From Sphingobacterium sp. BN32 (GTDB taxonomy: Bacteria > Bacteroidota > Bacteroidia > Sphingobacteriales > Sphingobacteriaceae), in contig NZ_CP129963.1 of assembly GCF_030503615.1 (NCBI RefSeq), positions 558,001 through 622,000 of the forward strand: a stretch of DNA of 64,000 nucleotides, given 5' to 3'. A program made the translations under genes and the position numbers. The notes under the pieces were generated by a model that worked only from the letters and a program-made list of their open reading frames with translations, ran no database searches and was not told where the DNA came from. Shown one piece after another: positions 31,428 to 38,800 of the stretch (within the stretch, counting starts at the first letter, position 1; every line of letters begins with the position of its first letter).

Positions 31428-32066
31428 CTATTTTGGACGATGCGAAATAAAATGTGCTTTCAATTTATCCAAGCCGATATTCTCTTCAATCTTATCCAAC
31501 TCCCATAACCAGGCTTTATCTGGCAGTACCTCGGATCGTTCTTTCGAGTTGATCAGATCTAAAGCCTTCACTTTGATTGTTTTTTCAATCGGTGGGACTT
31601 CGTTGTGCTGACGTCTAGACGTGCGCAAGATCTGAAATTCCAGATTTGGCCATTTATGAATATTAGCGAAATTCGCAGTATAGATCTGATGATATTCGCG
31701 GGCGGGAATAATATTGTTGTAGATACCTGTGCATTTATTGCCATTGACCTCCTTCACGGCAACTAAAAGTTCATAGCTTGTTTCATTGGCGATAAAAAAC
31801 TTCACTAAGCCTTCTTTTTGTTCGCCCGTCAAGGCTAGGAAGATACCTTTGTCAATAAACTTTGTAGTCGTATTGACCTGCTGCGGTTCCTCATCTTCCT
31901 CCATACGCATATTGCCATGCACTAAAGTGATCTTATCTTGCATAACGGGTATCTCAAAGCCTGTATCGTCCGTTACCCCGACTAAGCCGTTCGCCATAAA
32001 AGCGGTAATATGTCCTTCAATTGGTTCGTCTACGAACCGTACTAAATCGCCTATTTTAAAATTCAT
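31428..32066 (-). CDS. DUF2027 protein without the C-terminal Smr domain
   Basis: The 212-residue protein begins with the DUF2027 N-terminal segment (IGDLVRFVDEPIEGHITAFMANGLVGV) and has the middle region with GIYNNIIPAREYHQIYT. Family members I know of are longer and end in an Smr endonuclease-like domain with an HGKG motif; here the protein stops at HFISHRPK and the bases beyond show no Smr remnant. It overlaps the aminotransferase stop by 4 bases, so they are coupled. Function unknown. Confidence 0.7.
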   Translation of the reverse strand: MNFKIGDLVRFVDEPIEGHITAFMANGLVGVTDDTGFEIPVMQDKITLVHGNMRMEEDEEPQQVNTTTKFIDKGIFLALTGEQKEGLVKFFIANETSYELLVAVKEVNGNKCTGIYNNIIPAREYHQIYTANFANIHKWPNLEFQILRTSRRQHNEVPPIEKTIKVKALDLINSKERSEVLPDKAWLWELDKIEENIGLDKLKAHFISHRPK

Positions 32067-33148
32067 CTCAATTTATCTATAGTAGCTATTAATCTGTGTA
32101 TGTCTTCGAGCTTATTGTATAAATGTAGCCCAATTCGAATGCCTGTTCCACGTGGGAAGCATTTTATGCCTTCTGCCAATAGTTTTGGGTAGAGTGCTTG
32201 ATCGAGTTGAATATTGATCAAAGCAGAGCGCAGTGGTCGGCGTGCAATTTCCGGTAATAGTAGGTCGCGCTCAGCAAGTAAACTATAGGCCTCATCGCAA
32301 AGTGTCGTTATATGTTCGCCGATTGCGTCAAACCCTAATTCTTCGAATAGCAGCAAGGATTCTTTCAGCGTACCTTGGCTCACGGTGTCCACATGTCCTG
32401 GCTCGAAAAAAGTGTCCAAAACGCTTTTATTGCTCCAGAAATCAGTGCTGGGTCTGGGAATACCTTTTAGTCCTAGCTCCAATGCCGCTTGTAGTTTTTG
32501 GTTCAACAACAAAAAACCGTTACCAAATCCCGAACATAACCATTTATAACCGCTGCAGGATAAGGCATCGATGCCTGAACGGTCGAATGCGAAATCCTCT
32601 GTGCCCAAATATTGCGAACCGTCAGCAATGATCCAGATATCAGGATATTCCTCTTTCAAGCGCCTAAAAAATCGTGGGTCTATCTTTAATCCGCTGATAT
32701 ATTGAACGATGCTGATCAATAATACATTGGGTTTATAATCCTCGATTGCTTTCAGGATATTTTCTTCGACCTGCTCATCCGCTTTAACGGTTTTATAGGC
32801 TAAGTTTCGTGAAATGATCGGGTAGAGGATTGATGGATACTCGCCCTCCAATGCCAAATAACGGTAATCTTTCGGCAATAAGTCGATGAGCGTAGAATAG
32901 CCGAACGAGAAATTTGGCGTCAAATAGACTTTATGTTCAGCGGTGTGAAAAACCCTTGCAATGGTATCCTTTACGGTGCTCAGAAAAGCAGTTTGCTGAT
33001 CGCGTAGATCCGTATCCACCCGGAAGAATTGCTCTTCCCAAGTTCGTCGCCAGTGCAAGCTGCGTTTCGGAATTAAACCATTCCCCGAACTATTGACATA
33101 GCAAATATCTGCAGAAAGGTTAAAGTGTTCGCTGAAAGTCATAGGCAT
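32063..33148 (-). CDS. Class V aminotransferase
   Basis: A 361-residue PLP enzyme of the class V (NifS/Csd-like) fold. The PLP lysine lies in SCSGYKWLCSGFGNGF near residue 190, and the aspartate that pairs with the PLP ring in ADGSQYLG about 25 residues earlier. It lacks a conserved C-terminal cysteine of desulfurases, so it is an aminotransferase or lyase of unknown substrate. The N-terminus overlaps the end of the aat reading frame by 29 bases; MTFSEHF at 33142 is another possible start. Confidence 0.82.
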   Translation of the reverse strand: MPMTFSEHFNLSADICYVNSSGNGLIPKRSLHWRRTWEEQFFRVDTDLRDQQTAFLSTVKDTIARVFHTAEHKVYLTPNFSFGYSTLIDLLPKDYRYLALEGEYPSILYPIISRNLAYKTVKADEQVEENILKAIEDYKPNVLLISIVQYISGLKIDPRFFRRLKEEYPDIWIIADGSQYLGTEDFAFDRSGIDALSCSGYKWLCSGFGNGFLLLNQKLQAALELGLKGIPRPSTDFWSNKSVLDTFFEPGHVDTVSQGTLKESLLLFEELGFDAIGEHITTLCDEAYSLLAERDLLLPEIARRPLRSALINIQLDQALYPKLLAEGIKCFPRGTGIRIGLHLYNKLEDIHRLIATIDKLR

Positions 33149-33788
33149 TGATTTCTTGATGTTGTATGATTGCTAAAAACTCTTCCTGCGGAATAAGGGT
33201 TGCGCCCATGCTTTCCAAATGTGCTGAATGAACCTGACAGTCGATCAGGGAGATTCCAAAATCTTCCGCTAGACTTATCAAGGCTACCTTCGACGCATTG
33301 GACACTTTGGAAAACATGCTTTCGCCGCCAAAAACATTCCCAACTTTAACGCCGTATAAGCCACCTACAAGCTGATCTTGTTCCCATACCTCGACACTAT
33401 GCGCATAACCATGTTCGTGGAGCGAGATATAGGCGGCTTTCATCTCCGGTAAGATCCATGTTCCTTGCTGACCTTCGCGTACAATCCGAGCGCATTGATC
33501 GATCACCTGTTCAAATGCCTAATTATAGGTTACCTGAAATCTCTTGGATCGTAGTACTTGGCGCATACTTTTGGAAATTTTCAAATTTCCCTTCAGTATC
33601 ACAAAGCGCTCATGTGGCGAATACCAAAGAATGGGTGTGTCTTCGTCATACCAAGGGAAAATACCGTTTTGATAGGCTAATAACAAGCGCTCTTCCGATA
33701 AGTCGCCTCCGATGGCTAATAAGCCGTCTTCGTCCGCCAAGCGCGGATGTGGAAAAGCCAATTGTGCTTCATCCAATAAATAAGGCAT
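33120..33788 (-). pseudogene. aat: Leucyl/phenylalanyl-tRNA-protein transferase, interrupted by an in-frame TAG
   Basis: Read from 33788 the frame encodes a standard Aat start ([46 protein letters not shown]) up to QVTYN. It then meets TAG at 33519-33521 and continues in the same frame as AFEQVIDQCAR, GTWI, AYISLHEHGYAHSVEVW, GGLYGV, GESMFS and a normal end. The family expects Gln at the stop position, so a single CAG to TAG change would explain it. The restored protein would be about 222 residues, normal for Aat, which adds Leu or Phe to N-terminal Lys/Arg for the N-end rule. It lies 13 bases after rbfA. A true lesion, a sequencing error and readthrough are all possible. Confidence 0.85.
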
Positions 33789-33801: not shown

Positions 33802-34176
33802 CTATTCTTCCGGTTGACGAGGCTCCTTGCTGATTTCCTCAAATATTTTGTCCATATGTTCCACGTACTCGTTAGTGTCGTCTAAGAAGAACTCCAAGTT
33901 CGGAACAATGCGCGCTTGATTTTTGATGCGTGCGCCAAGTTTATAACGTATCTCGCTAGTTTTTGAACGAATGCTATCAATATCAGCTTTCGCAGTATTT
34001 GTGTTCAAAAAACTGAGAAATACGCGAGCAATGGAGAGGTCAGGCGTTACACGCACTTTTGTTACGGTAATAAAGGCACCAGGAGCCCACGAATTCCCCT
34101 CTCTCTGAAACATCTCTGCTAAATCTTGCTGAATTACGCCGGCAAATCGTTGCTGTCTTTTACTTTCTGTTCCCAT
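33802..34176 (-). CDS. rbfA: Ribosome-binding factor A
   Basis: RbfA (124 residues) binds the free 30S subunit and helps mature the 5' end of 16S rRNA. The KH-like core is seen in SKRQQRFAGVIQQDLAEMFQ, FITVTKVRVTPDLSIARVFLSFL and IRYKLGARIKNQARIVPNLEFFLDD, read in parts. Length and start are typical. It leads a minus-strand set that continues through aat, the aminotransferase, the DUF2027 gene and MscS. Confidence 0.95.
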   Translation of the reverse strand: MGTESKRQQRFAGVIQQDLAEMFQREGNSWAPGAFITVTKVRVTPDLSIARVFLSFLNTNTAKADIDSIRSKTSEIRYKLGARIKNQARIVPNLEFFLDDTNEYVEHMDKIFEEISKEPRQPEE

Positions 34177-34410: not shown

Positions 34411-34497
34411 GGGTTTACATTGGGTTTGAAAGGGGAGTGAGATGAAGAAGGTAGTATGGAGTGTCGTTGGATATAAGGCGTTAGATTTTTGAGTGTT

Positions 34498-34545
34498 GTC
34501 TGAACCAGGAAAGGAAGGGTTTTTAGGATTATCAGGATCGGATAT
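34498..34545 (+). repeat. Fragment of dispersed repeat A
   Basis: GTCTGAACCAGGAAAGGAAGG followed by AGGATTATCAGGATCGG (allowing changes) matches the purine-rich part of repeat A, without the GGCGCC hairpin in front of it. Confidence 0.6.
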
Positions 34546-34928
34546 GCTGTGTGATGAAGGACAGGATCAGCGGTCAGGTAATGTGACATATGATGCATTG
34601 TGTTTTTTCTAGGAGATGTTTAGTGAAACGTCTCTACACATTGGCGTCCATTTGGCGCCTATGCAGTTTTGAACTATATAGGCGGGAATCAGATTGGAAA
34701 GGAATCAATCCGATGAAATATTATCGTAAGATTATATCTGCACAGGGAGAGGTCACAAAAAAAGTTAATCTATCTATCTATCTATCCAAACAGCGGAAAG
34801 TGTTTGGGGTTATATCAATACCCGTAACAAGTCTACTATTGGTTGGGAATGTGAAAAAACAACTATTTGATGAATGTAGCAAGTTTCGGGTTTTCAGACA
34901 TCTGCTATCTACCGTTTTAATTGGATAT

Positions 34929-35960
34929 TTACTTTTCTTTACTCAACTGGATTTCCAATTGTTTAACCGTAGGCAATTGGCTTTTGAATTCTTTAGGTAA
35001 TGCCTGTGTAAGTTTGTATTCGCTAATGCCGATCGGTTTTTGAATATCACGCAAAGAATATTCTGCATCCACCTTGTTTTTGTGCTTGCAAAGGATTAAT
35101 CCGATACTTGGATTGTCCTGCTCGTTCTTAAGTTGGCTATCAATTGCCGAAAGATAGAAATTCAATTTACCTGCATATTCAGGTTTGAATTTGCCCGATT
35201 TGAGCTCTACCACGATATAGCTACGTAAATGTAAGTGATAAAAAAGCAAATCAATAAAGTATTCATTGTCGCTAACAATAATTGAATATTGTCTGCCAAC
35301 AAATGCAAAGCCTTTACCTAATTCCAGTAAAAACTGCGTAATATGTTGCATCATTGCATTTTCGATTTCTCGCTCTAACGCATCATCTTCTAAACCTAAA
35401 AAATCGAAATTATAGGGGTTTTTCAGTGTTTCGACCGCCAACTCCGATTGTAGCAGGGGTAAAGTGTTCTGAAAGTTGGTAGTTGCTTTTCCCTTAGTCT
35501 GATAATACTTGTTTTTGATCGAAATCTCCAATTGTTCTCTACTCCATCCATTTTCGGCAGTTGCTTTACAATAAAATAATGCTTCTTTGGTGTTTTTGAT
35601 TTTTGAGATAATAAGACGGTTATGCCCCCACGGAATTTGTGCCACAGGTTGTGGCACAAATTCGGAAACTGTATTATAAAACAAATGCCACTGTCTGATA
35701 GCATACAAATTTCGCCTTGAAAAACCGTTGATATCAGGGAAACTCAATTTAAGATCAGTTGATAATTGTTCCAAGACACCATCGCCCCAATTTGCTTCCT
35801 GTTGTTTGCTTACAATATCTTTTGCCAAATCCCAATACAACTCGATTAGCTGTGTATTTACACTTACAGCAGCTTTTAGCTGTGCCGATTTGATTTTCCG
35901 CTTAATAGCTTCAAGCCATTTGTTGTATTGGTTTGTCTTGATTGCTTGTGACCTAGGCAT
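34929..35960 (-). CDS. DUF1016 / PDDEXK-type nuclease protein (YhcG-like)
   Basis: A 343-residue protein of the YhcG family. The N-terminal DUF1016 half has LIELYWDLAKDIVSKQQ and LSFPDINGFSRRNLYAIRQWHLFY, split at about 46-62 and 83-106. The C-terminal nuclease-like half has the PDDEXK pattern: Asp in YFIDLLFYHLHLRSYIVVELKSGKF (D...E-x-K) followed by SIGLILCK. Members are found in mobile or accessory contexts and are thought to act on DNA; the role here is not known. It stands alone between two gene-poor gaps. Confidence 0.88.
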   Translation of the reverse strand: MPRSQAIKTNQYNKWLEAIKRKIKSAQLKAAVSVNTQLIELYWDLAKDIVSKQQEANWGDGVLEQLSTDLKLSFPDINGFSRRNLYAIRQWHLFYNTVSEFVPQPVAQIPWGHNRLIISKIKNTKEALFYCKATAENGWSREQLEISIKNKYYQTKGKATTNFQNTLPLLQSELAVETLKNPYNFDFLGLEDDALEREIENAMMQHITQFLLELGKGFAFVGRQYSIIVSDNEYFIDLLFYHLHLRSYIVVELKSGKFKPEYAGKLNFYLSAIDSQLKNEQDNPSIGLILCKHKNKVDAEYSLRDIQKPIGISEYKLTQALPKEFKSQLPTVKQLEIQLSKEK

Positions 35961-36029
35961 TTTGAAATAATATATTTTGCTTAAGTAAATTTAACAATAA
36001 TAGGGATTGCAGGGATCATTGTATTCCCA

Positions 36030-36143
36030 TTAACTTCCTCGTTTTCTGTTTTTCTTATTTTTCTTTATTCGGCCGGCAAATTCCTGTTTTCTGTAGTCTT
36101 CGCCATGTGGTTCCGGCAGTAACCCACCCATCGGTCTATCCAT
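36030..36143 (-). CDS. Possible 37-codon basic peptide
   Basis: On the minus strand ATG at 36143 opens a 37-codon frame: MDRPMGGLLPEPHGEDYRKQ, then a strongly basic end rich in Lys, Asn and Arg. I recognise no family, and it could be a remnant of a larger gene or chance. It lies upstream of the DUF1016 gene in the same direction. Confidence 0.2.
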   Translation of the reverse strand: MDRPMGGLLPEPHGEDYRKQEFAGRIKKNKKNRKRGS

Positions 36144-36301
36144 AAATCATCGGTTTTAAAAAGAGTATGGGACTCCTCAACTTGATCCTCCCTATTATTT
36201 ACTAAAATAAAAAAGCAACTCCAAAAGGTTTGCATTTTTTGTGCTCCCGCTGGTACAAAACTCCTAAATAATCCCAGCCTCGTTTATCTAAAAATTAGCG
36301 C

Positions 36302-38427: not shown

Positions 38428-38696
38428 ATGTACGATCTCATCTTCACCTCTTCGGCAATCTCTGATATTAAATTTTTAAAAAAGACAGATCAAGCGGCGT
38501 AAAGGAAGGTTGAGAATTAGAAGAATTGAGGATTCATCCAAGGAGTGGAACTGGTAAACCGAAAATTAAGAAGCATAACCTTGCTAGACTTTATTCAAGG
38601 CGAATTACTAAAAAACACAGATTAGTGTATTTAATCAATGATTTAGAAATTTTTGTCCATATAATATCCGCAAAAGGCCATTATGGCGATAAATAA
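38428..38696 (+). pseudogene. YoeB/Txe-type mRNA interferase toxin, frame-broken
   Basis: ATG at 38428 opens MYDLIFTSSAISDIKFLKK, then TAA ends it after 24 codons. In another frame the rest of a YoeB-like toxin follows: ELEELRIHPRSGTGKPKIKKH, then ARLYSRRITKKHRLVY and a normal end at 38696, but that frame also has a TGA upstream at about 38508. The total of 269 bases is not a multiple of three. The catalytic region (HRLVY, final HY) is intact but cannot be made in one piece. The antitoxin upstream is intact. Confidence 0.8.
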
Positions 38697-38773
38697 AACT
38701 TTCATGTTTCCATTGAAACACCAACAGCGATGAAAGTTCTTGATGGCCTTTGAAAACAGACGCTTTCAAAAAA
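38696..38773 (-). repeat. Dispersed repeat B, copy 2
   Basis: CTTTCATGTTTCCATTGAAA on the left, ATGAAAGTTCTTGATGG in the middle and CAGACGCTTTCA at the right end are shared with 52027-52101. The middle TGAAAG can pair with either outer CTTTCA. On the minus strand it follows the galM terminator directly. Confidence 0.75.
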
Positions 38774-38800
38774 AAAGGAGGTTTTTAAACCTCCTTTTTT
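38771..38800 (-). terminator. galM terminator overlapping its stop codon
   Basis: A 14-bp stem (AAAAAAGGAGGTTT/AAACCTCCTTTTTT) with a 2-base loop encloses the galM stop at 38785. Confidence 0.85.

Follow-up and report, generated by a model that had tools for sequence, protein, structure and literature searches.

The closest described system to the locus studied here is the Aat family of leucyl/phenylalanyl-tRNA–protein transferases, which is covered by the profiles TIGR00667 and PF03588 and for which structures have been solved (2z3k, 2dps, 2cxa). In the enzyme of E. coli, the segment LIDCQV carries what we take to be the catalytic glutamine (Gln188). Two other kinds of described case are relevant for a member of this family that is interrupted by a stop codon, namely pseudogenes with a single nonsense codon and conserved in-frame stops. 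For in-frame stops of bacterial genes, frequent readthrough has been proposed, along with the view that such stops may lower expression, and the part of that study considered here counts only stops that are common to two or more species, owing to sequencing errors (Belinky et al., 2021; PMC7918605). A literature search by titles and abstract openings gave no paper on aat in Sphingobacterium among the matches listed.

The aat gene of Sphingobacterium sp. BN32 resembles the Aat family in that its frame, when read through, scores above the curated cut-offs, and it differs from that family by an in-frame TAG at codon 90. With single-nonsense pseudogenes it shares an isolated, lineage-specific stop without other decay, and nothing was found that sets it apart from them. 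It also resembles the conserved in-frame stops, as far as these are covered by the part of PMC7918605 considered here, since the stop is surrounded by sequence of low dN/dS, whereas the BN32 stop is common to no other species examined and does not pass the error filter of that study. In our view, a very recent nonsense substitution has probably inactivated aat in one Sphingobacterium lineage.

Results

All positions refer to the window, by which we mean the whole stretch of 64,000 nucleotides that was analyzed (contig NZ_CP129963.1, 558,001 to 622,000), and the features of the locus are collected in Table 1. The aat gene is one frame of 223 codons that runs from ATG to TAA without any frameshift; the TAG at codon 90 is its sole internal stop, and the remainder of the gene is intact. 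The product read through the TAG reaches 202 bits with the NCBIfam equivalog model TIGR00667 (cut-off 143.55) and 240.8 bits with the Pfam model PF03588 (cut-off 22.7), and residues 7–210 align to solved Aat. An earlier note on this DNA had identified the gene as aat, with this TAG as the only lesion of its frame, and the translation and both profiles agree with that assignment. Under the standard code, the internal TAG breaks the continuous open frame and leaves a product of 89 residues, and the segment that aligns to the LIDCQV of E. coli lies 3' of the stop. The single-contig genome of 4.37 Mb has one aat copy, in which a whole-genome search independently flagged "1 TAG", and this search found no second, intact copy.

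Table 1. Features of the aat locus, with positions in the window.
Feature	Position	Strand	Basis
aat (leucyl/phenylalanyl-tRNA–protein transferase), broken by one in-frame stop	33120-33788	minus	profile matches, frame translation
In-frame TAG, codon 90 of 222, family-variable position	33519-33521	minus	translation, alignment
3' half of aat as mechanical ORF, 128 aa, GTG start; restart possible, unproven	33120-33506	minus	
rbfA, 30S ribosome-binding factor, immediately upstream of aat	33802-34176	minus	TIGR00082, 57.6 bits, cut-off 51.15
Class-V aminotransferase-like gene, ATG inside 3' end of aat	32063-33148	minus	

The overlap of the aat end with the ATG of the aminotransferase-like gene is also found in the nearest relative, genome G028 (92.8% identical). 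Near rbfA and aat, a YhcG/DUF1016 nuclease gene (PF06250, PF17761; 34929–35960, minus) lies within a stretch of about 1.8 kb (34455–36299) for which the syntenic region of G028 gave no match, and this stretch is either an insertion beside rbfA-aat or was lost in G028. An intergenic segment of about 85 bases (38691–38776) has three matches (89–92%) within the syntenic G028 region and looks like a dispersed small repeat. Elsewhere in the window, there are two tandem tRNA-Met genes with equal scores (2151–2346, plus).

The interrupted codon had been described as a conserved glutamine, encoded by CAG in family members, and this did not hold: the column is variable among the 78 relatives that were aligned (29 genus loci, from the 87 other aat-bearing congeners, and 49 from a named genome collection, with L003 and L032 apparently representing one genome that is counted twice). 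Threonine occurs 22 times, lysine 18, glutamine 15, arginine 7, alanine 7 and glutamate 2 times, the rest being other residues, and for the 29 congeners the numbers are Q 11, T 8, K 4, R 3, E 2 and I 1, with the glutamine encoded by CAA in seven cases and by CAG in four. The column is preceded by an N/D column and stands two residues ahead of a nearly invariant F. As G028 has glutamine at codon 90 (the next nearest relative, G092, has glutamate), glutamine is a plausible ancestral state, though no conserved position of the family. The codon of G028 is two bases away from TAG, and therefore an intermediate step or another ancestral codon must be assumed.

An aat gene was detected in 88 of 93 genomes of the genus, and BN32 aat is the only one of these 88 with an internal stop, which makes the stop lineage-specific. 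At the level of the family, aat is present in 364 of 399 genomes, and one further aat with a stop was found among the matches listed, from the best-scoring down to an E value of 3.3e-72. This gene belongs to G257, a genome of another genus (L148, about 1122–1745), and its stop, a TAA, occupies another codon, one that lies near the C-terminus (HL*SMGA), for which reason it represents an event independent of the codon-90 TAG. In the 99% complete congener G066, the genome search gave no match to aat and none to the neighboring aminotransferase; rbfA is directly followed there by a homolog of the window ORF 31428–32066, the outer genes match the neighbors in the window, and the absence of aat is clean. 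Two less complete genomes, G068 (90%) and G083 (85%), have rbfA without an adjoining aat, and for G050 and G077, where aat was not detected, no aat loss was scored, because rbfA was likewise not found in them, which suggests assembly gaps. Judging from the stop in G257 and the absence in G066, aat is dispensable in the family.

Outside codon 90, the gene is strongly constrained. In the comparison with G028, with codon 90 left out, dN is 0.036 and dS 0.58, which gives a ratio of 0.062, and the ratios of the two halves are 0.029 (N half) and 0.096 (C half). This contrast does not stem from the stop, as dN is also higher in the C half than in the N half between G028 and G092 (0.139 vs 0.087, dS being saturated there). 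When changes were polarized with G092 as third sequence, 3 non-synonymous and 8 synonymous changes fell on the BN32 branch, 4 and 17 on the G028 branch, and 8 and 27 were unassignable; there is no excess of non-synonymous changes on the BN32 branch (Fisher p 0.67). With about 521 non-synonymous sites, 15 non-synonymous changes and half of the divergence assumed per branch, a neutral phase longer than about 12% of the branch is unlikely, and this holds even with 11 of the 15 changes assigned to the BN32 branch. The stop would thus be no older than about 12% of the branch if aat has been neutral since, and 2.5–9% under milder assumptions. From the low dN/dS outside codon 90 it follows that the lesion is recent or not real. 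A point against inactivation is that the gene shows no decay apart from this codon, for which an error or residual function would account just as well.

If not real, the TAG would be a base-calling or consensus error, and the living strain would carry a sense codon at this site and make functional Aat, which we consider possible but clearly the less likely case. A single lesion in such a constrained gene does resemble an isolated error, as does a stop that is seen in just one genome of the genus, but the assembly is a single contig with a listed completeness of 100%, and aat is the sole true internal break among 193 ORFs matched to G028 over 264 kb. The only other flagged row of the 193 is an over-long N-terminus, where the first 15 codons of the G028 ORF lie upstream of the likely start. 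In the reverse comparison, nine BN32 ORFs were flagged in G028, two of which were inspected and had a stop at codon 12 each; these nine rows concern the G028 genome and not that of BN32. With aat as the only broken gene of 193, the assembly is not error-rich. An error-rich assembly, of which nothing was seen in the 264 kb, was rejected by this comparison, which is blind to one isolated substitution error.

It is improbable that the TAG is read through, be it programmed or tolerated, with an amino acid inserted at UAG often enough for a low level of working Aat. Purifying selection acts on both sides of the stop, codon 90 tolerates many residues, and, according to the part of PMC7918605 considered here, a low dN/dS is frequently preserved in bacterial genes with in-frame stops, all of which speaks for readthrough. 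However, recency accounts for the low dN/dS, which is thus no argument for readthrough, and the sharing of the same stop by two or more species, on which that part of the study relies, is contradicted by its occurrence in one of 88 aat-bearing genomes. Furthermore, within the 264 kb of the comparison TAG is the terminator of 59 of 194 ORFs of BN32 and, in G028, of 55 among the 193 that were matched, no further TAG-broken gene exists among the 193, and RF1 is present (485.8 bits, cut-off 423.25). None of the 54 tRNAs found, for each of which ARAGORN assigned the anticodon, has the anticodon CUA, and the one Gln tRNA has UUG; 150 of 289 candidates were scored in this search, so that a tRNA of strongly divergent sequence may have escaped it. 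There is also no stable RNA structure at the stop, as the z value for 161 nt is +2.2 and folds of at least equal stability were obtained for 199 of 200 shuffles, and the centroid fold contains only a short local hairpin. The earlier note had suggested looking for a suppressor tRNA or unusual TAG use in other genes, and this check revealed an ordinary terminator and no CUA tRNA among the 54 found. A suppressor tRNA or altered code was rejected on the basis of the 54 tRNAs, RF1 and the 264 kb of compared genes.

Still less probable is that the stop serves as a leaky brake, with a little full-length Aat made by near-cognate decoding at the residue-tolerant codon. If true, N-terminal Leu/Phe tagging would be low or stress-dependent, and this would explain the lack of decay elsewhere in aat. 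The least probable case is a split enzyme made by ribosomes that restart at the GTG 12 bases past the TAG, with subsequent assembly of the two halves: the GTG-started ORF of 128 residues spans the rest of the aat frame, but this GTG is a plain Val codon of the normal frame, none of the other aat-bearing genomes of the genus (88 including BN32) has an internal stop, and the break lies within a region that aligns unbroken to the solved E. coli enzyme.

Discussion

With recent inactivation as the preferred reading, translation of BN32 aat would halt after 89 residues, ahead of most of the catalytic domain, the truncated protein would most likely be inactive, and the addition of Leu/Phe to N-termini by Aat would cease. 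The gene for ClpS is present in BN32 and in all eight other genomes tested, six of which are without aat or without an unbroken aat, and two with aat; both G257 and G066 keep ClpS, and BN32 encodes two proteins with a Clp N domain. The ClpS/Clp recognition arm is intact and would continue to deal with proteins on which a destabilizing N-terminus is already exposed. Replacement of Aat by a transferase of the ATE/Bpt type was rejected, as PF04377 has no match in the BN32 genome.

In summary, the stop looks like an ordinary gene loss of very recent date, with a sequencing error as a possible alternative. Of the three options that had been offered, the recent single-base loss thus stands as the probable one and the sequencing error as a considerably weaker one, whereas programmed readthrough found no support, and the BN32 stop does not amount to evidence of a new mechanism of decoding. 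The loss of Aat with ClpS retained would mean that Aat is dispensable in this organism, and that the recognition arm has other work to do.
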